NCBI GenBank assembly: GCA_026399095.1
Contig: JAPLRP010000019.1
Coordinates: 1 to 64,000, forward strand
Direction of reading: 5' to 3'
DNA length: 64,000 nt
Source of the DNA: Methylococcales bacterium
Lineage (GTDB): Bacteria > Pseudomonadota > Gammaproteobacteria > Methylococcales > Methylomonadaceae
Of the stretch, positions 4,682 through 25,554 are shown piece after piece. A model generated the notes under the pieces. The model made no database searches. It was not told the origin of the DNA and saw only the letters and a list, made by a program, of their open reading frames with translations. Position numbers and translations under genes: made by a program. Each line of letters begins with the position of its first letter. The first letter of the stretch is position 1.

Positions 4682-5161
4682 TTAAAGATTTAAGCAGCTT
4701 AAAGAGGGATGATGCTCTGGACGGTGGCCTTGTGGCCAATGAAATTTGCGATCTGTTTGTTTAATGGGTAAGTCATTGATACTTGCATAGCGGCATTGCA
4801 TTAATCCATTTTCATCAAATTCCCAGTTTTCATTTCCATAAGATCTAAACCATTCGTTAGATTCATTATGCCACTCGTAAGCAAAACGAACCGCGATTCG
4901 GTTGTTATCAAAAGCCCATAGCTCTTTTATTAAGCGATACTCCAATTCTTTTGACCATTTTTTGATCAGGAAATCTATAATCTGCTCTCGACCTGTAATA
5001 AACTCTGCACGGTTTCGCCATTGGCTATTGCTGGAATAGGCTGTGGCTATACGTTCTGGATCTTGATTGTTCCAGGCATCTTCAGCCATACGCACTTTTT
5101 GTATGGCTGTATCATGAGTAAAAGGTGGAAACGGTGGCCGTTCATCAAGATTTGTTGGCAT
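4682..5161 (-). CDS. DUF1348 (NTF2-like/SnoaL-fold) protein
   Basis: A 159-residue soluble protein of the NTF2-like superfamily, DUF1348 group. It shows the characteristic opening ([20 protein letters not shown]), the [14 protein letters not shown] segment, and the aromatic-rich [21 protein letters not shown] core that forms the curved sheet. An AGGA ribosome binding site precedes ATG 5161. No catalytic residues can be named; proteins of this fold are often small-molecule binding or isomerase-like. The gene stands alone between radC and the end of the DAB-like operon. Confidence 0.8.
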
Positions 5162-5189: not shown

Positions 5190-6734
5190 TTAGGGTGAAA
5201 ATAATCCTGCAATCTCATTATTTCTCACCGCCGGTTGATTTAACAAATGCGACAACCATGCTTCTGCTGCTATCTGATTTGTTTTTAAAATAGTATTCGG
5301 AAAAAAGCCAACGATTAAAATTAGCAGTGCTGGTGCACAAATTAGGGCCAGTTCACGAGGACGTAAGTCTTGTGTCTGGTTAATAGCGGCCTGAGTAATA
5401 GGGCCGAAAAATGCTCTTCGACTAAAAGATAGCATATAAGCAGCACTGAGAACTGCGCCTGCCAATGCTGAAATGCCCAAGCTATGATGAGCGGTTAATG
5501 CACCAATAACCAATAATAATTCAGCCGGAAAACCGCTAGTGCCGGGAACACCGATACTGGCTAGTGCAAACAGAAAGTAGAAGCTGGTTAATTTTGGCAT
5601 TACATTAGCCAAGCCGCCTAAATGTATGGATTCTGTACTACCTAGTCGATGTTGAATAAACCCCGCTATAAGCATAAGTGAACTGGAAACTAGAGTGAAA
5701 TTGAACAGTTGAAAAATAGCACCTTGGATGCCCTGCATGGTTAAAGAGGCAATGCCGATTATGACTAAGCCAACGTGGCTAATACTGGCGTAGGCCAGTA
5801 AACGCCGAAAATTGGTTTGTTGTAGAGCAATCAAAGCACCATAAATTAGGGTAATTGCGCCTAAAATACCCAATACCCAACTGTATTCGACAGCCGCAGA
5901 AGGTGCTAAAGGCATAGTAAATCGTAATATGCCATAGATGCCAAGTTTTAATCCGATTAATAAGGCCGTTATCTGAGTGGGGCCTTCCATTGTGACGGTG
6001 GGCAACCATGTATGAAAAGGAACTAAAGGGGCTTTAACTGCAAAGCCTAAAAGGAGTAGTCCGAAGACAATAGCTTGTAAATCATCGGGCAACTGAGTTT
6101 TCAAAAGTACCGGTAAGTTGAAAGACAGATCTTCGGGAAGGGTGCCACCCACATCAACAGCGTGATTCATAGCCAGTATAATGAACGCAAATAAAAGCGG
6201 GACACCGCCAAACAGCATAAACAGAGTATATTTCATTCCCGCGTTCCGACGCTTGGGACCGATGCCCCATAAGCCAATCAAAAAGAAGATGGGTGGTAAT
6301 GTCAGCTCCCAGAATAAAAAAAACAGAACTGTATCGAGCGCAGAAAATATGCCGATAGTGATGCCTTCCAGAAACAGCAGTAAAGCAAAATGAAAACGTT
6401 GTAAATGTTGTATTGAATTCCAAGAGGCAGCGATCGTCATCAGGGTTAGCAATGCGGTCATGGGTAAAAATAATACTGAAATACCATCAATACCAATCAG
6501 AAATTCGATGTTTAAATTTGGTATCCAGGGATAATGCTCTAAAAGTTGGAAGTTATCGCCTTCAGAAGCATTAAATAATAGTAGCACTAGTAACGTCAGA
6601 ATAAGTTCCAGACCAGCTATTACCAAGGCAATCTTTTTAGCCAGTTTTATGTTGCTAATAACTCCGGTTAAAATGGCGCCCAATAAAGGAAATAAAATGG
6701 TCAGACTGAGTATTGGAAAGCCGGAATTACTCAT
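5190..6734 (-). CDS. NuoM-like antiporter subunit, last gene of DAB-like operon
   Basis: A 514-residue polytopic membrane protein of the proton-conducting antiporter family (PF00361), closest in appearance to NuoM. The pumping residues look intact: TM5 Glu in FLFWELTLPP, TM7 Lys in FAVKAPLVPFHTWLP, the broken-helix Lys in IGLKLGIYGILRF, and TM12 Glu in GFPAELLLV. Its start overlaps the preceding stop by 4 bases (ATGA), so it is translationally coupled. In complex I such subunits move protons. Here, without other nuo genes in the window, it probably works with the DabA protein encoded upstream (inference). Confidence 0.85.
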   Translation of the reverse strand: MSNSGFPILSLTILFPLLGAILTGVISNIKLAKKIALVIAGLELILTLLVLLLFNASEGDNFQLLEHYPWIPNLNIEFLIGIDGISVLFLPMTALLTLMTIAASWNSIQHLQRFHFALLLFLEGITIGIFSALDTVLFFLFWELTLPPIFFLIGLWGIGPKRRNAGMKYTLFMLFGGVPLLFAFIILAMNHAVDVGGTLPEDLSFNLPVLLKTQLPDDLQAIVFGLLLLGFAVKAPLVPFHTWLPTVTMEGPTQITALLIGLKLGIYGILRFTMPLAPSAAVEYSWVLGILGAITLIYGALIALQQTNFRRLLAYASISHVGLVIIGIASLTMQGIQGAIFQLFNFTLVSSSLMLIAGFIQHRLGSTESIHLGGLANVMPKLTSFYFLFALASIGVPGTSGFPAELLLVIGALTAHHSLGISALAGAVLSAAYMLSFSRRAFFGPITQAAINQTQDLRPRELALICAPALLILIVGFFPNTILKTNQIAAEAWLSHLLNQPAVRNNEIAGLFSP

Positions 6735-8293
6735 TTTGATTGCCCTTGCTTGGTTACCGCATCATTGTTGTATTGTTGTGCGCCATGCATGGGATAATGC
6801 TCGCCCAAGTCAGTTGCTTCCTGGTCTATAAAGTTCAACCATGGGGTTGAGTAAAAACCGGTAATAATAAGTAACGAGCAAATCACTACAGTTATAATGC
6901 GTTCTTTTCTGATGGGGTGGTGGATACTACTGTATGGTTGATGAACACGTTTGGGAGTTGCTATAAATATTTGTTGAAAGGCGCGGAGCAAGAAGGCCGC
7001 AGCAAGGACGTTCCCAATCAAGATGGTTATGGCTAATAACCAGCCATCTTCTTCAATTACACCTTCAATGAGTAAATGAGCGGCATCATATCCAGGTGTT
7101 CCGGGCATAACCATAGTGCTTAGGGCAGAGATTAAAAACAACAAAGCGATGGTAGAGTTGGTATCAAATAGGCCGCCTAGTCGGGGAATGAAAGCGGTGC
7201 GTGTTCGCTCATAAATTAAACCAACACTAAAAAGCATACCTGCTGTTGCAAGACCATAAGCAATGCACAATAAGAGACAACCCTCAAGACCGTATTCGTT
7301 AAAACTGAAAAGTCCGATAACCAACATTCCCGTATGACTGACAACAGCAAAGGCTATCAGTCTGCGGATATTAATCTGCATCAATGCCAGTAATGCACCA
7401 TAGAGGATACTGATTAAACTTAAGGTCAAGACGAAATTAGCCCATTGTTCAGCGACACCTGGAACCAGAGGTAAAATAAAACGAATAACAGCATAAATCC
7501 CCAGTTTCAATCCTACTATAAAAATAGCGCTACTGGCCACCGTTCCTTGTTCCGCCAGTAATGGCAACCAGCCGTGGAATGGAAATAAGGGCATGCGAAT
7601 TGCAAATCCAAAAAACAACAGTATAAAAATCAATACTTCATCATGCAAATAAGCATTGTTTTGTTTTAGCGTTAGCCAATCAAAGGTAAGAGCATGTTCC
7701 GAGTCAATTAAGCCAAAAGCAAGTAACAGAAAGCCTGCCAAAGTCATCAGTAAGCCGCTTCCCCAATATTGCAGTAATAAAGTAATTACCCGCTGCCTGT
7801 TTTGGCCGGTTCCTGCATGGGTATTTAATAAAACCACCGGAATTAGTTCCAGTAAACACCACAGCCAAAACTGCATAAGATTTAGAGTTACAAAAGCACC
7901 GATTAAAATGCCTTCATAGCCAAGTAAGCAGGCAATAAATAACCGATCTGTTGAATGTCGGGTAATTAATGTATATACCAAAGCCATCAAGGTTAAAACA
8001 GCTGTTAATGGGATAAATAAAATATTTGCTCCATCAACACCAGTGCTGTAACTAAACCAGCCTAATTGAACTTGTTCGGCGAGATGAATGCCAGGATTGC
8101 CAGAGTCAAAAATAGCTAATAAATACAAGCTGAGTATTGCCGTAATTAATGTTCCTGTGAATCCAAATCGGAGTGCAATTGTTGGAGAGCGGGAATAAAG
8201 GATTGCAATCATAGTTGCAAGTGGAATAAATGTAAGCGCACTTAATAGTGGAAAGGGTGCGGATTCTGACCAAAAAGTAATAGGGACTTCCAT
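6731..8293 (-). CDS. Divergent NuoM/N-like subunit lacking canonical pumping residues
   Basis: A 520-residue membrane protein of the same antiporter family. Aligned by eye without gaps to its neighbour, the TM5 Glu is replaced by Leu (a Glu lies two residues later, CLLELIP), the TM7 Lys is Arg (FAIRMPLFPFHGWLP) and the TM12 Glu is Ala (GYDAAHLLIEG). The broken-helix Lys is kept (VGLKLGIYAVIRF). This suggests a structural or altered-conduction subunit. I chose ATG 8293 (MEVPITFW); an upstream TTG at 8311 would overlap the previous gene. Product function is inferred from operon context. Confidence 0.8.
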   Translation of the reverse strand: MEVPITFWSESAPFPLLSALTFIPLATMIAILYSRSPTIALRFGFTGTLITAILSLYLLAIFDSGNPGIHLAEQVQLGWFSYSTGVDGANILFIPLTAVLTLMALVYTLITRHSTDRLFIACLLGYEGILIGAFVTLNLMQFWLWCLLELIPVVLLNTHAGTGQNRQRVITLLLQYWGSGLLMTLAGFLLLAFGLIDSEHALTFDWLTLKQNNAYLHDEVLIFILLFFGFAIRMPLFPFHGWLPLLAEQGTVASSAIFIVGLKLGIYAVIRFILPLVPGVAEQWANFVLTLSLISILYGALLALMQINIRRLIAFAVVSHTGMLVIGLFSFNEYGLEGCLLLCIAYGLATAGMLFSVGLIYERTRTAFIPRLGGLFDTNSTIALLFLISALSTMVMPGTPGYDAAHLLIEGVIEEDGWLLAITILIGNVLAAAFLLRAFQQIFIATPKRVHQPYSSIHHPIRKERIITVVICSLLIITGFYSTPWLNFIDQEATDLGEHYPMHGAQQYNNDAVTKQGQSK

Positions 8294-8300
8294 CAGAATC

Positions 8301-9863
8301 TCAAAATGCAAGTAACAATGTTATTAATACAAACAAGACCAAATAACGCGGCCTTAAAATTAATTGTTCAAATTTATTTGCACCTTGCCCAAGCTTTCGA
8401 CCAAGATGTATGGCGTCTTTTCCTATACCGCGCAATACGAAGCGATCTTCGAACCAATGTACCAAGCTTGCAAGTAATTCAGTTAGTTTGCCAGCCAAGC
8501 CGCTACTCTGGGCAAATTGATCAGCGTTATTGTCCAGTCGGGCTCCTATTATTCTTTCTTCTAGCTGTGCGAGTGACGATATGGTTTTAATTGCAGGAGC
8601 AGGAGCACCCATAAATGGATCAATAAAATGATCATCAAAATAGTTTAGGTCGTGTGCCAGTCGGCGAATAGGCCTTACTAATGTCCAATCAGTTATTTGA
8701 TCAAGCCAGAACCTTTGTAGTGAAGCCATGTAGAGCCAATGAAATTTTGCAATCGCAGGCGTGACTGGTTTTATGGGATTATCCATTACCTGATGCATTA
8801 GTGATGGCGCTGTTAAAAATAAATAACTTCGAACTATGGCATGTGCACAAAGATGCCACCTTCCCAGATCCCAGAAGCCTAAGCCACACTCCAGAAACAT
8901 CAGTCCGATTTGACCCGAGGTAGCAAAAACCAAAGAACTTTTTACATCAGTCTGTGTCAGGCCAACAATAAAGCTGTAGAGGGCTGTCAAGGCACCTGAT
9001 GCAATCAGTATGGACATCGCTAACGGAGCCTGTTCAAAAATAGGTTCCAAAAGACAGACGAGATAAACGCCGGCATGAATCATTATGGCACCGTAAAATA
9101 TGGCGCTGGATGGTGTTGGACCTTCCATTGCTCTTGCAAGCCATGGTGTAAAAGGCAGTTGGGCTGATTTTGCCAGTGAAGCAATTGTAAAGCACAGGGA
9201 AATTCCGGTTGCTTCATTCGAACTCAGTTGTTCAGAGAGTGCATTTAAATCGTTCCAGTTAATACTGTCTGCCCAGCTATAAGTAAAACCGATTCCCAGA
9301 ATAAAACCGGCATCGCCAATACGGTTGGTGACAAATACTCGGGTTGCATTAATGCTGGCAACCGGACGATTATAGGCGTAGGTTATCAATAAATAGGAAC
9401 AAAGTCCTGCTATTTCCCAGCCAAAAAAAGTACCCACTGCATTTCCCGATAATACCAATAAGAACATGGCTGAAGCAAAAAGGCTCAAGATAAAGAAAAA
9501 CCGATGGAATCCAGCCTCTCTATGCATATAGTTTGTTGAAAAACGCATTATGATAAGCAGTAATATAGAAAATAAAGCCGCCAATACAACATTGAAGCCG
9601 GTTGTAATAAAATTGACTGAAATATTTAAGGAATCGCTGCTTAACCATTGTCCAATTTGCAAAGAACCGGTATTTTCTTGTGTTAAATCGGCGGTCAGTA
9701 ATACCAGAGCAAGCAGGCATGACATGCTGATAGCCCAAGTGGCTATAATGGCTGTTTTTCCTTCGCTGGCTTCACCGTTAAGTAGGCCTGATAACTGACC
9801 CATGCCGATAATTACGGCAGCGATAAAAGGCAATAAAGGAACGAAAACAACTAACGCATCCAT
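8301..9863 (-). CDS. dabB: DabB-type NuoL-like subunit
   Basis: A 520-residue NuoL/DabB-like membrane protein directly downstream of the DabA gene (3 bases apart), the partner arrangement known from DAB carbon-uptake systems. TM5 Glu (FFGWEIAGLCSYLL) and TM7 Lys (ASLAKSAQLPFTPWL) are present. After the TM9-10 region (WHLCAHAIVRSYLFL) the sequence passes to a roughly 130-residue hydrophilic C-terminus ending in one hydrophobic helix, so part of the usual TM11-14 region seems absent. Complex I NuoL is about 610 residues. It is expected to couple cation movement to DabA (known family role, inferred here). Confidence 0.8.
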   Translation of the reverse strand: MDALVVFVPLLPFIAAVIIGMGQLSGLLNGEASEGKTAIIATWAISMSCLLALVLLTADLTQENTGSLQIGQWLSSDSLNISVNFITTGFNVVLAALFSILLLIIMRFSTNYMHREAGFHRFFFILSLFASAMFLLVLSGNAVGTFFGWEIAGLCSYLLITYAYNRPVASINATRVFVTNRIGDAGFILGIGFTYSWADSINWNDLNALSEQLSSNEATGISLCFTIASLAKSAQLPFTPWLARAMEGPTPSSAIFYGAIMIHAGVYLVCLLEPIFEQAPLAMSILIASGALTALYSFIVGLTQTDVKSSLVFATSGQIGLMFLECGLGFWDLGRWHLCAHAIVRSYLFLTAPSLMHQVMDNPIKPVTPAIAKFHWLYMASLQRFWLDQITDWTLVRPIRRLAHDLNYFDDHFIDPFMGAPAPAIKTISSLAQLEERIIGARLDNNADQFAQSSGLAGKLTELLASLVHWFEDRFVLRGIGKDAIHLGRKLGQGANKFEQLILRPRYLVLFVLITLLLAF

Positions 9864-9866
9864 AAT

Positions 9867-12800
9867 TTATGCTTCCAGTTTTGGCTGTTTTATCAGCATG
9901 GGTGGAACGGGCAACGTTTGATTACGGTAACAATCGTGTGAGTTGTCTCTGACAGGAATGTCTTTGACTTCTGTTTGCCATAGAACAAATCCTGATCCCG
10001 GTTCAAATATAAATATCTCACCACTTTCAGGATCTTTGGTGCTTAAATGAATCCAGCCACCTGCAATCAGCTCCCGTAAGCTTTCTTGGTCAGCGTAAAT
10101 ACGTTCCAGTACAGATGTTTTTGCCTCAACCACTAGTTGTAAACGCATGGCTTCATGAATTTCAACCATTTGTTGAGGTAGGCCGGTACGTAAATCACTG
10201 CTGGCTCCTTCCATGACACCAAAAAAACCAGTGACGTTATGTGGCACTTTAGATCCACAACCCAAACGTTCATTATTAACAGTCGAAAAATAATATTCAA
10301 GGTTAATCCCTGCACCAACCGGAGCTACTGCAAGCAAAATACCTTCTAATATTTTTCCTTCAGGGTCTTGGGTTGGATCATAAGAAATAAGGAAGACACG
10401 GCGGTCAAAAAAAGCACCTTGTGTCAGTGATCTTCTACCGACGACTGCTGAAGCATTGGTAGCATGTCCCAGTTCAGGTCGCGTCTGAGAGAAATCAGTT
10501 GCTCGTTCTTCGATGTGTGCCAAGGCTTCTTTTGGCGTTGGCTTGCGTGGCGCGGAAGCAAGTCTGCGGCAGCGCTCATGGGCTGACATACGCTGCGCAT
10601 GTCTTAATGCTCGTTGCAGGTTTTCAAGATTGCTTAGTCGTTCTTTTGGAACGTCTGTTAAATCAAACCAGGAAATAGCCTCATTACAGGTGTTATGTTC
10701 AGCTCCAATAAACCATGCGTCGGCTGGAATATTGATGTCCTGTTCAGCTAAAATTTTGCGGATCTCAGGACGATTTGCCATAGCAGCGAATACTCGCGCA
10801 TTAGGGCCGCCATGACGACCACTGCAAGCGCCACAGTCATAAGCGGCCAAATGTGGATTATTCTGACTGATGGAGCCATGTCCCATTAGGACGACTATTT
10901 CTGAAAAGCCGGAAGTCAAACCCGTATTACGAAGTAAACCGGCAATGCGGGCGGCCTGTTCATTATCCGTAAAACCTTGTTTGGGATGGTCAATAGAAGG
11001 GAGTGTCAGCTTATCGATTGATGTAAAACTGAGTTCGGTTTTAACTTCTGGGGAAATCCATTCAGATATTTTTGTAAGTAGACAGTGTTGATATTTGGGT
11101 AGTAAGGATTTTGCTAGTAGTCCTATTAACATCAAAGGTGCAGTCGCATCAATCAGAGGATGTGGCAATAATAAATTGCGACGAAATCCATGATTTAGCC
11201 AATTAGTAATCCATTGATTTAACTTACGTCCACGACTATGGTTGGCTAGGGTCTCTTCGCTGCCTGTTCGCGGTACTTCATTAACTTCATGGCTGGGCGT
11301 TATTACAACCGGGCACAAAGCAGTAACTTTGCAGTCATCAAGGCCTTTGTAATTCATGGCGACACCAAAAAAACCAGCCGCGCCCAAGGTTTCAATGGCA
11401 GGATTGAACTCTTCAAGGTGACGACGAAAACCTTCTTCGCGGTCATCCATACAAAATATGATTTGTGACTCAGGTCGATTTTCGCGGATAGACCAGTGAC
11501 CACGATTGTGATTAGCTCGAAGTGCCTGAAAAAAACTTTCTCTATAATTTAGTTCGTAGGCATACAACCATATCTTACAACGTTCAGTGACGTTAAACTC
11601 ATCCAGCAGAGTCAATATAGCGTGCAAGTCATTTTTTGTTAGCGTTTGTACTTGTTTATCGTCTAGGCCCAAATGTTGAAATAAACGAAATAAACGCCAA
11701 CCACTTTTATGTACAGTATGACTAACGCTGTTTTCAGTCATAGGACTGCACTGCCAAGTCCAAATCAGTTCAGCAAGCTGTTGCCATTCGGCGCGATTAT
11801 TTCGATCAGGATCTGCTTGAGTAATTAATGATTCGGCTAATTGACCTAAGTATTCCGGTAACTCGCCTTGGTACAGCCATCTACGTACTGTAAATTCGGG
11901 TGTATTTTTTCGGAAATAAGATCGTAGCGAGCTAATATTAGCCTCAATTTTCCATAAGTCTGTGCAGATTTGATTGAGCCATAGCCTGTCCAAAGTGAGT
12001 CGAATGGCAAGATAGTCGGCCAGTGTTGGCGTTACATTATTTGCACTTTGGTAATGAGTATGGCGTTGTCGCCAGTTAATGAGTCCCGACCAGCCAGGCA
12101 ATTCAAGGGCGAGTCTTTGTAGATAACTTGTCCATTTAATAGCAGGTATTTCTAACTGACTGAGTTGGAGAATAATGTTATCAATGGGATCTTCAGGTAA
12201 TTCAGATATTATTTTTTGCCAGTTTGGTAACTCATGTAAAAAAGGATTCGCATCATAAGTTATGGTGGCTCGCCATCTGGCGTAAAAACTTAAGTAACTG
12301 TTATCGGATGTGTGCCACGAAGCTACACCTTCATCCATTGCTGATGCACAGATTCGAATCAATTGCGGGCGAACAGAATCGAGTATGTCAACGCCGCATA
12401 ATTTAAGGATAAATCCGCGTAATGTGATGGTATAGCCAACTTGAGATAATAAGTCTTCCAGTGCTGAAGAGTCATTTGGAGGCAATGGCTGTTTTTCTTG
12501 TGCTATATCTTGATATGCTGATAACCATTCTTCAGCTTGCTCTAGGCATAAATCAAGCATTGCCTCTGGATGAAGCACTGCGTGCTGCAAATCAAGTTTG
12601 CTAAGGATAGTTTCCCAAACCTTTTTGATAGTAAGTGCTTGATCAGTATTGTTGGCAAATAACAGGCTACGAACTGATTCTGGCACATCCGGTTGTGCAG
12701 CATCTAAAGCTCCTAGCTCATTGGTATGCCAATTTAATTGACTAATGCTGAGGCCTTCCAACTGATATAGCAGAGCGATAAGATAAATATCATTTCGCTT

Positions 12801-13127
12801 GATAATACGACCTTCCAAGGTGCAAACAGATTGATCCGGATTTAAGTTCGGACATTTTGCCAGTGAAGAACTTAGGCCGCTTTTGGTGATGCGTCCCTGC
12901 TGATAATAAAGACGGCTTTGCGCTTCAGGCAGATAAGCGAAAATACCTGTTAAGGCTTCGTATTCAGCTAATGCTTCTTCAAAGGGAAGGTGTTGAAATC
13001 CATGTAGGGTATTGTGGTGTACAAAATCGAGAATGGGCGCTTGTCCTGGTAGAACATGGTCTAAACGATCTAGGGCAGAGATGATTAATTCGCGGCTATT
13101 GGCGGGGTGTAAAAATGATTTTTGCAT
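9867..13127 (-). CDS. dabA: DabA-type inorganic carbon transporter subunit (DUF2309)
   Basis: A soluble or peripheral 1086-residue DUF2309 protein. In the characterised DAB system DabA is a beta-carbonic-anhydrase-like zinc protein that, with DabB, accumulates bicarbonate. The four zinc ligands can be placed: C559 and D561 in IFCMDD, H750 in LMGHGS, and C765 in YDCGAC. The 15-residue His-Cys spacing matches the characterised protein as I remember it. The protein is longer than the roughly 830-residue DabA2, mainly at the N-terminus (PILDFVHHNTLHGFQHLPFEEAL is recognisable near residue 40). ATG 13127 is preferred to TTG 13133. It sits between a NuoM gene and dabB. Confidence 0.88.
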   Translation of the reverse strand: MQKSFLHPANSRELIISALDRLDHVLPGQAPILDFVHHNTLHGFQHLPFEEALAEYEALTGIFAYLPEAQSRLYYQQGRITKSGLSSSLAKCPNLNPDQSVCTLEGRIIKRNDIYLIALLYQLEGLSISQLNWHTNELGALDAAQPDVPESVRSLLFANNTDQALTIKKVWETILSKLDLQHAVLHPEAMLDLCLEQAEEWLSAYQDIAQEKQPLPPNDSSALEDLLSQVGYTITLRGFILKLCGVDILDSVRPQLIRICASAMDEGVASWHTSDNSYLSFYARWRATITYDANPFLHELPNWQKIISELPEDPIDNIILQLSQLEIPAIKWTSYLQRLALELPGWSGLINWRQRHTHYQSANNVTPTLADYLAIRLTLDRLWLNQICTDLWKIEANISSLRSYFRKNTPEFTVRRWLYQGELPEYLGQLAESLITQADPDRNNRAEWQQLAELIWTWQCSPMTENSVSHTVHKSGWRLFRLFQHLGLDDKQVQTLTKNDLHAILTLLDEFNVTERCKIWLYAYELNYRESFFQALRANHNRGHWSIRENRPESQIIFCMDDREEGFRRHLEEFNPAIETLGAAGFFGVAMNYKGLDDCKVTALCPVVITPSHEVNEVPRTGSEETLANHSRGRKLNQWITNWLNHGFRRNLLLPHPLIDATAPLMLIGLLAKSLLPKYQHCLLTKISEWISPEVKTELSFTSIDKLTLPSIDHPKQGFTDNEQAARIAGLLRNTGLTSGFSEIVVLMGHGSISQNNPHLAAYDCGACSGRHGGPNARVFAAMANRPEIRKILAEQDINIPADAWFIGAEHNTCNEAISWFDLTDVPKERLSNLENLQRALRHAQRMSAHERCRRLASAPRKPTPKEALAHIEERATDFSQTRPELGHATNASAVVGRRSLTQGAFFDRRVFLISYDPTQDPEGKILEGILLAVAPVGAGINLEYYFSTVNNERLGCGSKVPHNVTGFFGVMEGASSDLRTGLPQQMVEIHEAMRLQLVVEAKTSVLERIYADQESLRELIAGGWIHLSTKDPESGEIFIFEPGSGFVLWQTEVKDIPVRDNSHDCYRNQTLPVPPMLIKQPKLEA

Positions 13128-13135
13128 GATCAATT

Positions 13136-14608
13136 TTATAAAAGCCGTTGACTGATTTGGTTATTAATTTGAGAAATCGTCGCAGCTGACAGGTCAATTA
13201 AAGGTGTGGGCATTAGGCCAAATATGATGATGCACGAAACCAGTAATCCAGCAGCAAGCAGTTCGGTCGTATTAAGATCGGCAATGTGTAGCATTTTTGA
13301 TTTTACCGGGCCGGTTAATAATAGTCCAATAGTTCGCATAGAGTAAGCTGCACTTATTAGTAGGCTCAAGCTGAAGAACACCATTAAGCCGCCCCATTGC
13401 TGAAAACCACCAATTAGAGTATTGAGTTCAGCAACGAAGCCAATTGAGCCGGGCAAACCCATTGCCGCTAGTAATGTTAAGGTCATAAGTAAGGCAAAGC
13501 GCGGCATAATTTGCACTAGTGAGCTGTAATCCTGAATATTACGAGTGTGTGTGCGTTCATATAGCAAGCCAGCCAGTAAAAACATGGCTCCCGCAATCAA
13601 TCCATGAGCTGTCATTTGTAATACTGCACCGGTAATCCCAATTTCATTCAAGGTAGCAATACCTAATAAAACAATGCCCATGTGGCTCAATGATGAATAA
13701 GCTATCATGGCTTTTATGTCGCTTTGACGCCAAGCCAATAAACCGCCATAAAGCATCCCGAATAGCGAAAGAAAAATAAGTACGGGCTGAAGGGCATGCG
13801 CAGCCTCGGGCAGCATGGTTACAACTCTTATAAGACCATACGCTCCCATTTTTAGTAAAATGCCTGATAACAAAATACTGATCGGACTAGGTGCCTCAAC
13901 ATGAGCTAGCGGTAGCCAGCCGTGCAATGGGAAAATAGGCATTTTAACGCCAAAGCCACATAAAAAGCCGAGCAGAACTAAAATCTGTTCAAGCCTGGGC
14001 ATGTCTCGTGCTGCCTGATGCATCGTCGTCATCAAAGACCCACTGTGCTCAAGGTCATACTGACTAATCGCCAGTAAGCTAATGAGCATAAAAACCGAAC
14101 CGCCCATGGTGTAGAGTACAAAATTTAGACTGGCTGTATGGCGGCGCTTACCACCCCAGCGACCAATAAGAAAAAACAGCGGAATTAAAGTGACTTCCCA
14201 AAAGACATAAAATAGCGCCCAGTCCTGTGCCAGAAAGACACCTAGCATGCCAAATTCAAGTAGCAGGATGCAAATGTGGTAGCCCTTAATGTTACTTGAA
14301 ATAGAAAAAGAAGCCAGCAAGGCAATGGAGGTCAGAAGTGTTGCTAAAGCGAGCATAGGCAATGATATTCCGTCAATTCCCAATGCGTATGCGCTGCCAA
14401 GATTAGGATTAAGCGGAAAATATTCGCTGAATTGAAGTTCGGGATTTTGTTGATTATATAAACTGACTAACCAGCAACTTAGCAAGAAAGAGAGGGTGGA
14501 AAAAAGATTAGCAATGATGCGGATTGACTTGTAATTATGGCTTGGAGTAAAAGCTAAAAGTAAAGCTCCCGCAGATGGAGTCCAGAGTAGTAGGCTAAGA
14601 ATTCCCAT
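13136..14608 (-). CDS. NuoM-like antiporter subunit, first gene of DAB-like operon
   Basis: A 490-residue NuoM-like membrane protein with a clean AGGAG ribosome binding site before ATG 14608. The key residues are intact: TM5 Glu (YVFWEVTLIPLFF), TM7 Lys (GFGVKMPIFPLHGWLP), the helix-break Lys (SGILLKMGAYGLIRV) and TM12 Glu (GFVAELNTLIG). It heads a five-gene minus-strand operon (this gene, dabA, dabB, two NuoM-like genes) with gaps of 3 to 8 bases or short overlaps. The operon diverges from the SUF regulator, and the shared intergenic region (14609-14821) must contain its promoter. Confidence 0.85.
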   Translation of the reverse strand: MGILSLLLWTPSAGALLLAFTPSHNYKSIRIIANLFSTLSFLLSCWLVSLYNQQNPELQFSEYFPLNPNLGSAYALGIDGISLPMLALATLLTSIALLASFSISSNIKGYHICILLLEFGMLGVFLAQDWALFYVFWEVTLIPLFFLIGRWGGKRRHTASLNFVLYTMGGSVFMLISLLAISQYDLEHSGSLMTTMHQAARDMPRLEQILVLLGFLCGFGVKMPIFPLHGWLPLAHVEAPSPISILLSGILLKMGAYGLIRVVTMLPEAAHALQPVLIFLSLFGMLYGGLLAWRQSDIKAMIAYSSLSHMGIVLLGIATLNEIGITGAVLQMTAHGLIAGAMFLLAGLLYERTHTRNIQDYSSLVQIMPRFALLMTLTLLAAMGLPGSIGFVAELNTLIGGFQQWGGLMVFFSLSLLISAAYSMRTIGLLLTGPVKSKMLHIADLNTTELLAAGLLVSCIIIFGLMPTPLIDLSAATISQINNQISQRLL

Positions 14609-14768
14609 AATATTTCTCCTTTAGCCTAATCTTGTCCTGATGTTTACTATGGTGACAATTATACGGTTAAGCGTTAAATTGGCAAGGTTTAGAACATTAA
14701 AGCTCATTTATCGGACTTATCCTGCTAATTGGATTGCTAATGTAGCATACGTAATAAAAACCAAGCTC

Positions 14769-22602: not shown

Positions 22603-23355
22603 ATGGCAGCTACAACTGAATCAGTGAAAGCTGATGCTGCGGAAAAACCGCTGTTGAATGTAAGAAATTTGGTGCTCGGTTCATTAGTGTACATTATTTT
22701 TTACGGTTGGGTTCGTTGGTACGAAGGTGTTTACGGCTGGTCAGCTGGCTTAGATTCATTCGCGCCAGAATTCGAAACATACTGGATGAACTTTTTGTAC
22801 ATTGAGTTCGTTCTAGAAGTATGTACTGCAGGTATCCTGTGGGGATATATCTGGAAATCTCGTGATCGTAAAGTGATGTCAATCACTCCAAGAGAAGAGT
22901 TAAGAAGGCATTTCACTCATTGGACTTGGTTGGTATGTTACGCTTGGGCTATTTATTACGGCGCTAGCTACTTCACCGAGCAAGATGGTACTTGGCATCA
23001 AACTATTGTTCGTGATACTGACTTTACACCAAGTCACATCATTGAATTTTACTTGAGCTACCCAATCTACATCATTACTGGTGGTGCTTCATTCTTGTAC
23101 GCTAGAACAAGATTGCCAGCTTACCAACAAGGTTTGTCTTTGATGTATTTGGTATCAGTAGTTGGTCCATTCATGATCTTGCCAAATGTTGGCTTGAACG
23201 AATGGGGTCACACTTTCTGGTTTATGGAAGAATTGTTTGTTGCTCCTTTACACTACGGCTTCGTATTCTTCGGATGGGCTGCTCTTGGTGTTCTAGGTGT
23301 TGTAAACATAGAAGTTCAAGCAATATCTAAACTTCTGAAAAAAGACTTAGCTTAA
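22603..23355 (+). CDS. pmoC: Particulate methane monooxygenase subunit C
   Basis: A 250-residue integral membrane subunit of copper-dependent pMMO, which oxidises methane to methanol in intracytoplasmic membranes. The metal ligands D128, H132 and H145 are present (QDGTWHQ and TPSHIIEFY), equivalent to D156, H160 and H173 in Methylococcus capsulatus. About six hydrophobic helices are visible. It is the first gene of pmoCAB, with a strong AGGAGG site. Codon choice is highly uniform compared with neighbours, as expected for a very highly expressed gene. Confidence 0.97.
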   Translation: MAATTESVKADAAEKPLLNVRNLVLGSLVYIIFYGWVRWYEGVYGWSAGLDSFAPEFETYWMNFLYIEFVLEVCTAGILWGYIWKSRDRKVMSITPREELRRHFTHWTWLVCYAWAIYYGASYFTEQDGTWHQTIVRDTDFTPSHIIEFYLSYPIYIITGGASFLYARTRLPAYQQGLSLMYLVSVVGPFMILPNVGLNEWGHTFWFMEELFVAPLHYGFVFFGWAALGVLGVVNIEVQAISKLLKKDLA

Positions 23356-23375
23356 TTTAAGTCTTGGCTGTAATA

Positions 23376-23432
23376 ACTATCTCCTCGCTGTTTCGCCCTG
23401 TTTCAAGGCGAAACAGCAAAGTGGAAGATAGT
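23376..23432 (+). promoter_or_regulatory. pmoC-pmoA intergenic hairpin
   Basis: A perfect 11-base stem (23387-23397 with 23407-23417, 9-base loop) is enclosed by a second 7-base stem (ACTATCT 23376-23382 with AGATAGT 23426-23432). There is no T tract, so it is more likely an RNA processing or stability element that sets subunit ratios than a terminator (inference). A further 8-base inverted pair covers the pmoC stop (23342-23349 / 23358-23365). Confidence 0.65.
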
Positions 23433-23471
23433 AATTAATAAAAATAATTTAAATCCTTTAGGAGGTAAGCT

Positions 23472-24221
23472 ATGAGCGCATCTCAATCAGCTGTACGTTC
23501 ACGCGCAGAAGCCGTTAAAGTTTCTCGCACGTTCGATTGGCTAATTTTGTTTACATTGTTCTTTGTTGTACTAGGTGGTTATCACATTCACTATATGTTA
23601 ACCGGTGGTGACTGGGATTTCTGGACTGACTGGAAAGATAGACGTCTATGGGTAACCGTAGCACCAATCGTTTCAATCACTTTCCCTGCTGCTGTTCAAG
23701 CATGTTTGTGGTACCGTTACCGTTTGCCATTTGGTGCGGTAGTTTGTATTTTAGGTCTTCTTTTAGGTGAGTGGGTCAACAGATACTTAAACTTCTGGGG
23801 TTGGACTTATTTCCCAGTAAACTTCTGCTTCCCATCAAACCTTATGCCAGGTGCTATTGTTCTTGACGTAATTTTGATGTTATCAGGCAGTTTAACTGTA
23901 ACTGCTGTAGTTGGTGGTTTGGCTTACGGTTTGTTGTTCTACCCAGGTAACTGGCCAGTTATTGCTCCATTACATGTACCTGTTGAATATAACGGTATGA
24001 TGATGACATTGGCTGACTTACAAGGTTACCACTACGTAAGAACTGGTACTCCTGAGTATATCAGAATGGTTGAAAAAGGTACTTTAAGAACTTTCGGTAA
24101 AGACGTTGCTCCAGTATCTGCGTTCTTTTCTGGTTTCGTAAGTATTATTATTTACTTCCTTTGGCATTTCTTCGGAAAATGGTTTGCACAAACCACTTTC
24201 GTTAACAGTGAAAATTTCTAA
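23472..24221 (+). CDS. pmoA: Particulate methane monooxygenase subunit A
   Basis: A 249-residue membrane subunit of pMMO with the standard marker-gene motifs GGDWDFWTDWKDRRLWVTV, FWGWTYFPVNF and the C-terminal VRTGTPEYIRMVEKGTLRTF. These place it in true pmoA, not amoA, and the C-A-B order excludes pxmABC. An AGGAGG site precedes the ATG. Several positions in the middle (FCFPSNLMPG, GGLAYGLLF) differ from the Methylobacter pmoA I remember, so it may be a less common Methylococcales lineage (inference). Confidence 0.97.
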   Translation: MSASQSAVRSRAEAVKVSRTFDWLILFTLFFVVLGGYHIHYMLTGGDWDFWTDWKDRRLWVTVAPIVSITFPAAVQACLWYRYRLPFGAVVCILGLLLGEWVNRYLNFWGWTYFPVNFCFPSNLMPGAIVLDVILMLSGSLTVTAVVGGLAYGLLFYPGNWPVIAPLHVPVEYNGMMMTLADLQGYHYVRTGTPEYIRMVEKGTLRTFGKDVAPVSAFFSGFVSIIIYFLWHFFGKWFAQTTFVNSENF

Positions 24222-24226
24222 TTAAA

Positions 24227-24302
24227 AGTTCTAATAATTAAAGAACTGGACAATTAAGATTGCCAGATATACTAATAAAAGATTCTCTATTAATAGAGGG
24301 GG
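24227..24302 (+). promoter_or_regulatory. pmoA-pmoB spacer hairpins; one overlaps the pmoB ribosome binding site
   Basis: A 6-base stem (AGTTCT 24227-24232 / AGAACT 24242-24247) is followed by a 14-base palindrome CTCTATTAATAGAG (24285-24298). Its last bases are part of the GAGGGGG ribosome binding site (24296-24302), 8 bases before pmoB. Folding would partly hide the site and could tune PmoB translation. Confidence 0.5.
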
Positions 24303-24309
24303 ATATAAT

Positions 24310-25554
24310 ATGAAAATATTAAAAGACAAGGTTGCAAAATTATCCTTTGTCGCACTGCTGCTCACTATGACAGCAGCGATGTTTTACACACCAACTGCAT
24401 CTGCTCATGGTGAAAAGTCGCAGGCTGCATTTATGCGTATGCGTACAATTCACTGGTTTGATCTTAACTGGTCAAAAGATGAAGTGCCTGTTAACGATAC
24501 AATGACACTAACTGGTAAATTCTATGTGTTTCAAGGCTGGCCTGAAACTGTTGATAAACCAGAAGTATCATTTTTAAACGTTGGTATTCCTGGTCCTGTA
24601 TTTATTCGTGCAGGATCTTGGATTGGCGGTCAATTAGTTCCACGTTCAGTTTCTTTGGAACTGGGTGAAACTTATGAATTTAAAGTATTGTTAAAAGCTC
24701 GTCGTCCTGGTGACTGGCACGTTCACGCAATGATGAACGTAAAAGGCGGTGGTCCAATTATTGGTCCTGGTAAATGGGTAACCATTACTGGTTCAATGTC
24801 AGATTTTACCAACCCAATTACTACCTTAACTGGTGAAACTATTGACTTGGAAACTTATAATCTGAGCAATACTTACTTCTGGCATGGTCTTTGGTATGCT
24901 ATTGGTTTGCTTTGGTTAGCTTATTGGGCACGTAAACCAATGTTTGTTCCACGTTCTATTGCTGTTGAAGCTGGTAAAGCAGATACTTTAATTTCTGGAA
25001 CAGATAAAAAAGTTGCATTGGGTTTTGGTGTAGGTGTTATCGCTATCGTTGCTATGTCAATGGCATCAACTAATGATAAATTCCCTATTACTACTCCGTT
25101 GCAAGCTGGTTTATTACGTGGTATGAAAACCATTGAAATGCCGGTTGCAACTGTTAAAGTTAAGATTGAAGATGCGACTTATCGTGTTCCAGGTCGTGCT
25201 ATGCAAATGACTATGACTATCACTAACAATGGTGACTCTCCAGTACGTTTAGGTGAGTTCAACACTGCTGGTGTTCGTTTCTTGGATCCTGAAGTTTCTG
25301 TAGATGAATCAGGTTATCCTGATGATTTGTTGGCTGAAGAAGGTTTGACTGTTAGCGATAACAGCCCACTTGCTCCTGGTCAATCAAAAACAGTTCAAGT
25401 AACTGCTTCTGACGCTGCTTGGGAAGTATATCGTTTAGCTGATTTGATATACGATCCAGATAGTCGTTTCGCTGGTTTGTTGTTCTTCTATGATGCAGCT
25501 GGTAATCGTCAAATGATTACTATTGATGCGCCATTAATTCCATCTTTCATCTAA
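24310..25554 (+). CDS. pmoB: Particulate methane monooxygenase subunit B
   Basis: A 414-residue pMMO subunit with large periplasmic cupredoxin domains. Residues 1-32 are a signal peptide ending in ASA, so mature PmoB begins at H33, the N-terminal copper ligand. H137 and H139 (DWHVHAMM) complete the Cu(B) site, and H48 is also kept. Two hydrophobic helices (about 184-205 and 235-252) separate the cupredoxin domains. Numbering of the ligands coincides with M. capsulatus. It is the last gene of the operon and followed by a strong terminator. Confidence 0.97.
   Translation: MKILKDKVAKLSFVALLLTMTAAMFYTPTASAHGEKSQAAFMRMRTIHWFDLNWSKDEVPVNDTMTLTGKFYVFQGWPETVDKPEVSFLNVGIPGPVFIRAGSWIGGQLVPRSVSLELGETYEFKVLLKARRPGDWHVHAMMNVKGGGPIIGPGKWVTITGSMSDFTNPITTLTGETIDLETYNLSNTYFWHGLWYAIGLLWLAYWARKPMFVPRSIAVEAGKADTLISGTDKKVALGFGVGVIAIVAMSMASTNDKFPITTPLQAGLLRGMKTIEMPVATVKVKIEDATYRVPGRAMQMTMTITNNGDSPVRLGEFNTAGVRFLDPEVSVDESGYPDDLLAEEGLTVSDNSPLAPGQSKTVQVTASDAAWEVYRLADLIYDPDSRFAGLLFFYDAAGNRQMITIDAPLIPSFI

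Follow-up and report, generated by a model that had tools for sequence, protein, structure and literature searches.

A five-gene DAB-family operon with four antiporter-type membrane subunits in a Methylococcales bacterium and its probable role in inorganic carbon supply

The window analyzed here is a stretch of 64,000 nucleotides from a Methylococcales bacterium (positions 1 to 64,000 of contig JAPLRP010000019.1, assembly GCA_026399095.1). An original prediction made from the sequence alone had placed in it an enlarged operon of the DAB type, i.e., five tightly spaced minus-strand genes in which dabA is accompanied by genes for antiporter-family membrane proteins. Open reading frame (ORF) coordinates and Pfam matches confirmed these five genes at 5190-14608, in the order M1-dabA-L-M2-M3. 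In this order the genes are separated by gaps of 2 and 3 nt and then overlap by 11 and 4 nt. All four membrane proteins (L, M1, M2, and M3) matched Proton_antipo_M (PF00361). The genes are:

13136-14608, minus strand: M1, NuoM-like, first gene of the operon, 490 aa (TIGR01972 match of 483 bits, conserved residues, own clade)
9867-13133, minus strand: dabA of the long type, 1088 aa, predicted tandem β-carbonic-anhydrase-like CO2-hydrating subunit (PF10070, AlphaFold2 (AF2) model, match to 9rd0_A)
8301-9863, minus strand: L, DabB-type, 520 aa (profiles, alignment, and tree, with a Shimodaira-Hasegawa-like approximate likelihood ratio test (SH-aLRT) support of 99)
6731-8311, minus strand: M2, divergent NuoM-like, 526 aa (alignment; orthologue fused to L in Competibacteraceae)
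5190-6734, minus strand: M3, NuoM-like, 514 aa (TIGR01972 match of 458 bits; residues conserved in 48 of 48 orthologues)

Within the operon we found no Mrp small subunits, no electron-transfer genes, and no NuoH, NuoJ, NuoK, or redox subunits.

DabA matched PF10070 with 818 bits, and it matched DabA2 of the DAB2 system of Halothiobacillus neapolitanus (PDB 9rd0, 9rd0_A) with an E-value of 1e-73. In the alignment C561, H752, and C767 of the window DabA correspond to C351, H524, and C539 of DabA2, while D563 and R565 correspond to D353 and R355. The Cys/His/Cys zinc site and the Asp-Arg dyad are therefore shared with DAB2. The relevant parts of the gene are:

11439-11453, minus strand: CMDDR in the translation, with zinc ligand C561 and the Asp-Arg dyad D563/R565 of DabA
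10833-10880, minus strand: zinc ligands H752 and C767 of DabA in the translation
11055-11258, minus strand: predicted helical "finger" of DabA, residues 626-693 (AF2 secondary structure and alignments)

The zinc ligands and the dyad were kept in 72-73 of 73 long-type DabA orthologues, H752 and C767 in all 73. DabA2 mutants altered in zinc-ligand or dyad residues were found to grow poorly at low CO2 (PMC13144422). The AF2 model of the window DabA had a predicted local distance difference test score (pLDDT) of 81.6 and a predicted template modeling score (pTM) of 0.81. Its best structural matches were the carboxysomal β-carbonic anhydrase CsoSCA (Z of about 10.5, root mean square deviation 4.2-4.5 Å over 287-310 residues), and the next group of matches, at a Z of about 6, were likewise β-carbonic anhydrases. 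Foldseek, with structures up to April 2026, did not return 9rd0 for this model, an absence that carries no weight. As modeled, DabA resembles a tandem β-carbonic anhydrase. The operon thus contains a PF10070 protein with the Cys/His/Cys ligands and the Asp-Arg dyad of the DAB family. For the finger, D662 falls at the position of Glu444 of DabA2 by ungapped reading, but Asp is found there in only 29 of 73 orthologues, and automatic alignment shifts several residues in this region. Glu444 was considered as a marker of family membership and found unusable, because the finger alignment is unstable and the residue variable.

The original prediction had called the gene after dabA DabB/NuoL-like. The first part of this name held, as L is a true DabB, shortened at the C-terminus. 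It is not a NuoL, which it resembles only over residues 1-361. The NCBIfam NuoL profile matched L over residues 3-361 only, with a score below the cut-off. Relationships were assessed in a quick maximum-likelihood tree of 119 membrane proteins, which included DabB, NuoL/M/N, MrpA/D, and HyfB/D/F and for which SH-aLRT is the only support given. L clustered with canonical DabB (99), next to DabB1 and away from NuoL. As in the DAB family, dabA is accordingly adjoined by a PF00361 subunit that is kin to DabB and not to NuoL. Residues E150, R181, D184, K232, K308, and H341 of L were kept in 54-55 of 55 orthologues, and L has an Arg for NuoL K342. The short C-terminal part is without residues aligned to K399 and D400 in transmembrane helix (TM) 12 of NuoL. 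DabB2 likewise is without the NuoL TM12 charges, and in DAB2 it is at the region of these charges that the finger of DabA inserts (PMC13144422).

The claim of four antiporter-family subunits was correct with respect to fold. However, only M1 and M3 resemble ordinary proton translocators, whereas M2 is without three of the four canonical NuoM charges. The scores against NCBIfam NDH_I_M (TIGR01972) were 483 bits for M1, 277 bits for M2, and 458 bits for M3, all over the cut-off of 263.8 bits. M1 keeps the TM5 Glu (E138), the TM7 Lys (K222), the TM8 Lys (K253), and the TM12 Glu (E394) in 71 of 71 orthologues, and the corresponding residues of M3 (E143, K234, K263, and E405) were kept in 48 of 48. 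In M2 the Glu residues of TM5 and TM12 are lost at their columns and the TM7 Lys is replaced by Arg (R239, 52 of 52 orthologues). The TM8 Lys is kept (K269), and M2 has charges of its own near TM12, namely D409 (51/52), H412 (52/52), and E416 (45/52). The notion that M2 is simply dead was softened in view of these invariant or near-invariant residues, R239 included. Judged by its residues M2 is altered, not plainly dead.

The clades of M1, M2, and M3 were supported by 100, 100, and 98, respectively, with M2 and M3 as sisters (99). All three fell within the NuoM clade (99) and not with MrpA/D, HyfB/D/F, or NuoN, and they were separate from the NuoM of complex I. By this phylogeny M1, M2, and M3 are three old, distinct subunits. 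The branching of the four membrane-subunit clades was broadly parallel. Sequences from Methylomonadaceae, Nitrosomonadaceae, and Nitrotoga clustered together for all four subunits, which suggests that the operon has moved between lineages as one unit.

By its two core subunits the operon is assigned to the DAB family, and it is of neither described DAB subtype. DAB2 has two subunits and no NuoM-like ones, whereas three more NuoM-like genes accompany dabA and dabB here, and DabA2 is 870 aa long compared to 1088 aa in the window. The essential finger residue Glu444 of DabA2 falls on an Asp in the window by ungapped reading and is apparently not conserved in long-type DabA, and Ile151 of DabB2 is replaced by Glu (E150) in L. 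DAB1 of H. neapolitanus (DabA1, DabB1, and a small membrane protein) is built on the same two core families as the window operon. In the DAB1-like cluster of Nitrobacter, the membrane gene comes first, a hypothetical gene lies in the middle, and the neighbors are PII and RuBisCO/carboxysome genes. None of these are found in the window operon, which differs from DAB1 in gene order and neighbors. MpsAB of Staphylococcus aureus also has the same two core families and supplies inorganic carbon in a non-autotroph. It consists of two subunits only, and in contrast to DAB2 it has been argued to depend on sodium (PMC13144422).

Several antiporter-type subunits are also found in the membrane arm of complex I (NuoL, M, and N), and M1-M3 are NuoM-like. 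The operon, however, is without the NuoH and the redox subunits that accompany them in respiratory complex I, and without NuoJ and NuoK. It has a DabB instead of NuoL, and three NuoM types but no NuoN type. It is not an Mrp antiporter either, as the small subunits are missing from it and M1-M3 cluster with NuoM, not with MrpA or MrpD. The cyanobacterial NDH-1MS/CUP complexes offer an analogy in the way they work, with CO2 hydration on a NuoL/NuoM-type membrane arm. In those complexes the CUP proteins are unrelated and an electron-transfer arm is present, whereas the window operon is without any electron-transfer gene.

In a study from 2017, ybcC (COG3002/DUF2309) of clade C was reported upstream of a nuoL homologue together with an extra NuoM (COG1008) and SulP (COG0659) (PMC5700660). 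The window operon agrees with that text, having ybcC upstream of a nuoL homologue and NuoM-type genes nearby, and on this description the clade C operons are very probably of the same type. The main text of the study proposes an ion-exporting enzyme and contains neither the order of the subunits nor an analysis of their residues nor a carbon function. Whether the layout is widely described as a DAB subtype therefore has a divided answer. The NuoM and SulP neighbors are in print, and no named DAB subtype of the five-gene kind was found in a literature search that was incomplete since the main DAB papers fell outside it. The subunit anatomy, the altered M2, and the L::M2 fusion, carbon-gene neighbors, and derived lineage described below were not found in the literature searched.

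A DabA match was found in 198 of 311 genomes of the order Methylococcales, and the long form, full or partial, made up well over half of the matches listed. The first 18 Methylococcales operons read all had the order M1-dabA-L-M2-M3, with one broken L frame and one broken M3 frame. Long-type DabA was also present in about a dozen further gammaproteobacterial families and in other families of the phylum. The best 80 loci of a scan by name, which is no census and uses the taxon names of the records, include Methylobacter, Methylomonas, Nitrosomonas, Nitrosospira, Nitrosovibrio, Nitrotoga, Thiobacillus, Sulfurimicrobium, Thiothrix, Thiodiazotropha, a Solemya symbiont, Competibacteraceae, Magnetococcales, and others. 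Among loci wide enough to hold the whole operon, 77 of 86 had M1-dabA-L-M2-M3 in this order on one strand, or 76 of 84 when loci collected twice were counted once. Since the loci were collected through DabA, this count gives the order in the presence of a long DabA and not a frequency in nature. With one order on one strand at so many distinct loci, the arrangement is not due to chance. The loci that deviated had an L::M2 fusion, a broken L frame (one locus), a tandem duplication of dabA-L (one locus), or fewer genes (two loci).

In relatives with a complex I, the five DAB genes are present as well. In a midpoint-rooted tree, long-type DabA formed one clade (99), apart from the DabA of two-gene systems and nearer to a clade of DabA1 and two other multi-subunit types. 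In three intact pairs, the ratio of nonsynonymous to synonymous substitution rates (dN/dS) was about 0.02-0.12 for each of the five genes, synonymous sites being near saturation in one of these pairs. The possibilities that the operon is restricted to methanotrophs or new to this genome were ruled out by the many other families and genera. The five-gene operon is a widespread, little studied variant and not peculiar to this genome.

The host was correctly described as a methanotroph, with pmoCAB at 22603-25554 of the window and no RuBisCO match in the genome. The genome is a draft (98.4% complete, 94 contigs), and this and the following absences rest on that draft. No NuoH match and no PF00361 protein outside two DAB loci were found in it, which makes it very unlikely that M1-M3 are parts of a complex I in this host. 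One NQR2/RnfD-family protein is found in place of complex I. The genome has five β-carbonic-anhydrase matches, one of them weak. Its second DAB locus, on contig C15, consists of a dabA and an adjoining dabB of 875 and 632 aa, i.e., an ordinary two-gene DAB. Beside this pair (G000:C15, L033:5492-10014) no carbon genes were recognized.

At four distinct Competibacteraceae loci L and M2 form a single protein of 1039-1045 aa. In an AF2 model the fused M2 half superposes on Escherichia coli NuoM with a Z of 52.2 and 1.8 Å. Some rows of the alignment behind this model are two adjacent same-frame genes read through the intervening stop. At 12 distinct Methylococcales loci the operon is neighbored, on its own strand, by genes for both β-carbonic anhydrase and SulP. 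In Magnetococcales and Thiodiazotropha loci, the gene immediately upstream of M1 encodes SulP. Members of the SulP family may carry sulfate or bicarbonate. In Acidithiobacillus, a can-sulP pair has been argued to be a bicarbonate system (PMC6458275). The gene fusions and the flanking β-carbonic anhydrase and SulP genes would fit one inorganic-carbon complex.

A derived lineage of Methylomonadaceae deviates from this pattern. In genus g20, and in two g25 genomes and one g28 genome, M1 is adjoined by a DabA that is shortened or diverged. Zinc-ligand positions have been lost in 10 of the 15 genomes with such a DabA, two of which are without the entire carbonic-anhydrase half, and the ligands are kept in the other five. 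These 15 proteins form one clade (100) in the DabA tree; their loci include L231:5474-7576, L234:8491-10323, L299:2656-4245, L300:2594-4186, and L307:2438-5584. M2 was present in 19 of 20 g20 genomes, and M1, L, and M3 were open frames where read. The proton path has also drifted, with E143Q in 9 of 9 M3 sequences read, changes of K222 and E394 of M1 in several, and erosion of residues of L on this path. The dN/dS was 0.10-0.26 for DabA and 0.06-0.18 for the membrane subunits. Judged from these substitutions, the catalytic site and the proton path are apparently relaxed in the same lineage, although not residue for residue. The g20 operon was in addition seen divided between two sites in the genome, M1-dabA at one and L-M2-M3 at the other (L232/L233, L230/L231, and L234/L235), in one relative with an intact and in two with an eroded DabA.

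We find it probable that the operon encodes a five-subunit, proton-driven DAB converter of CO2 to bicarbonate, of which we infer the assembly, coupling direction, stoichiometry, and physiological role. DabA would provide a cytoplasmic zinc site that hydrates CO2 to bicarbonate, and L would be its DabB membrane partner, admitting protons to drive or gate the hydration. M1 and M3 would add two further, apparently competent NuoM-type proton-translocating modules, whereas M2, next to L, would be a modified module that has charges of its own and probably acts as a connector or an altered channel. L and M1-M3 together would form a complex-I-like membrane arm without the electron-transfer part. The proton motive force would then drive vectorial hydration of CO2, coupling more than one proton to it or working at a lower force than a two-gene DAB does. 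The bicarbonate would serve anaplerotic and biosynthetic carboxylations in this methanotroph without detectable RuBisCO, and CO2 fixation in related autotrophs. A larger cation-driven system for inorganic carbon, as originally predicted, is the best supported of the earlier ideas, given an operon larger than a two-gene DAB and the β-carbonic anhydrase and SulP neighbors in relatives. It is not special to a non-autotroph, since records under the names Nitrosomonas, Nitrosospira, Nitrotoga, Thiobacillus, Thiodiazotropha, and Magnetococcales also contain this operon. More tentatively, and with some doubt on our part, a four-subunit redox-free arm on a zinc carbonic-anhydrase head could move several protons per CO2 hydrated, so that inorganic carbon is gathered even when CO2 is very scarce or the proton motive force low. 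The arm would be modular enough to have been kept for another task in one methanotroph lineage, the DabA of which lost its catalytic site.

Several observations weigh against the proposed converter. The host already owns a two-gene DAB and five β-carbonic-anhydrase matches, leaving the need for the larger operon in doubt. As the finger Glu444 is apparently not conserved in long-type DabA, the proton route cannot be transferred from DAB2. Some Competibacteraceae loci have no M1 or M3 near dabA and L::M2, as judged from the surroundings of the locus, and the AF2 model of the fusion has a pTM of 0.57 and does not fix the L half or the packing of L against M2. Finally, going by the derived lineage, the membrane arm can persist without a working zinc site and may serve another task too.

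Some of these points agree with dabA and L alone being the CO2 converter and M1-M3 a separate or loosely attached Mrp/NuoM-type antiporter, which is only co-transcribed and sets the local pH or potential. M1 and M3 own complete proton-path residues, M1-dabA and L-M2-M3 are split at two loci in some relatives of one genus, and dabA and L::M2 occur without M1 and M3 nearby as described above. However, nearly all loci have dabA placed between M1 and L, four distinct loci have L fused to M2, the membrane-subunit clades are broadly parallel, and Mrp small subunits are missing from the operon, and we therefore regard a separate antiporter as fairly unlikely. A low probability is given to a cation/proton antiporter or pH-homeostasis complex in which DabA is regulatory or structural, similar to how MpsAB has been read as "membrane potential generating" or sodium-dependent. 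This would account for the derived lineage keeping M1, L, and M3 under purifying selection (dN/dS of about 0.06-0.18) with zinc ligands gone in 10 of 15 genomes, and MpsAB is argued to be sodium-using, unlike DAB2 (PMC13144422). Nevertheless, the window DabA and 73 orthologues have an intact zinc site, the derived lineage also shows erosion of the proton path in M1, L, and M3, and the β-carbonic anhydrase and SulP neighbors point to inorganic carbon.

The reverse direction, in which an exergonic DabA reaction drives ion export and more membrane subunits export more ions, was proposed in the main text of the 2017 study, before the zinc site was known (PMC5700660). It agrees with the complex-I-like multiplication of antiporter-type subunits but seems highly improbable for a DabA with a β-carbonic-anhydrase-like zinc site. 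Hydration of CO2 is too near equilibrium to power export of several ions. Furthermore, the work on DAB2 infers hydration coupled to the membrane potential (PMC13144422). The earlier suggestion of a coupling to energy metabolism is unlikely in the complex I sense. That M1-M3 are spare or alternative subunits of respiratory complex I is suggested by their scores over the NDH_I_M cut-off, but this is largely refuted and retains hardly any probability. The 98% complete host genome has neither NuoH nor PF00361 proteins outside the two DAB loci, the M1-M3 clades are separate from complex-I NuoM, and relatives with complex I carry the five genes additionally. A remnant or accessory of complex I was rejected on the same absences.

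If the operon does encode the proposed five-subunit converter, the DAB family would reach beyond the two-subunit carbonic anhydrase and include a multi-subunit machine with borrowed NuoM-type modules, and adding or removing M1 and M3 would make the proton-to-CO2 ratio testable. Its function would bear on carbon acquisition in several element cycles, because it is found in records named as methanotrophs, ammonia and nitrite oxidizers, sulfur oxidizers, animal symbionts, and Magnetococcales. It would also be a natural comparison for long-distance coupling by the antiporter-type subunits of complex I.

The immediate flanks of the operon contain the following features:

14658-14685, minus strand: promoter-like TTGCCA-16-TATAAT, 11 of 12 consensus matches, 50 nt upstream of M1 (consensus match only)
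4682-5161, minus strand: DUF1348 (SnoaL-like) gene, 28 nt downstream of M3 (ORFs and Pfam)

The region upstream of M1 as a whole was not enriched in promoter-like sites compared to shuffled sequences, and the listed site is a weak candidate for the operon promoter. The divergent neighbor of the operon encodes an Rrf2-family regulator (PF02082), and the genes beyond it resemble a suf cluster, as judged by reading and without a family search. The DUF1348 gene may possibly be co-transcribed with M3. Apparently the same DUF1348-type gene adjoins M3 in the relative at L034.

Other arrangements of DabA were seen in relatives. A Thiothrix metagenome-assembled genome has tandem dabA-L in one operon, M1-dabA-L-dabA-L-M2 (L165:8956-20915). 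In genome G335, a larger and different cluster (L100:374-12281) contains a DabA of 950 aa, SulP, NuoL- and NuoM-like genes, and Mrp/Mbh small subunits (MnhE, MnhB, MbhD/E, and NuoK-like), so that DabA is combined with a set of the Mrp type. In genome G305 (L238:2802-11278) the gene for a DabA of 1108 aa precedes one for a NuoL-like protein of full length and two for NuoM-like proteins. These NuoM-like proteins cluster near complex-I NuoM and not with M1-M3; by reading, a SulP-like ORF lies upstream on the other strand.

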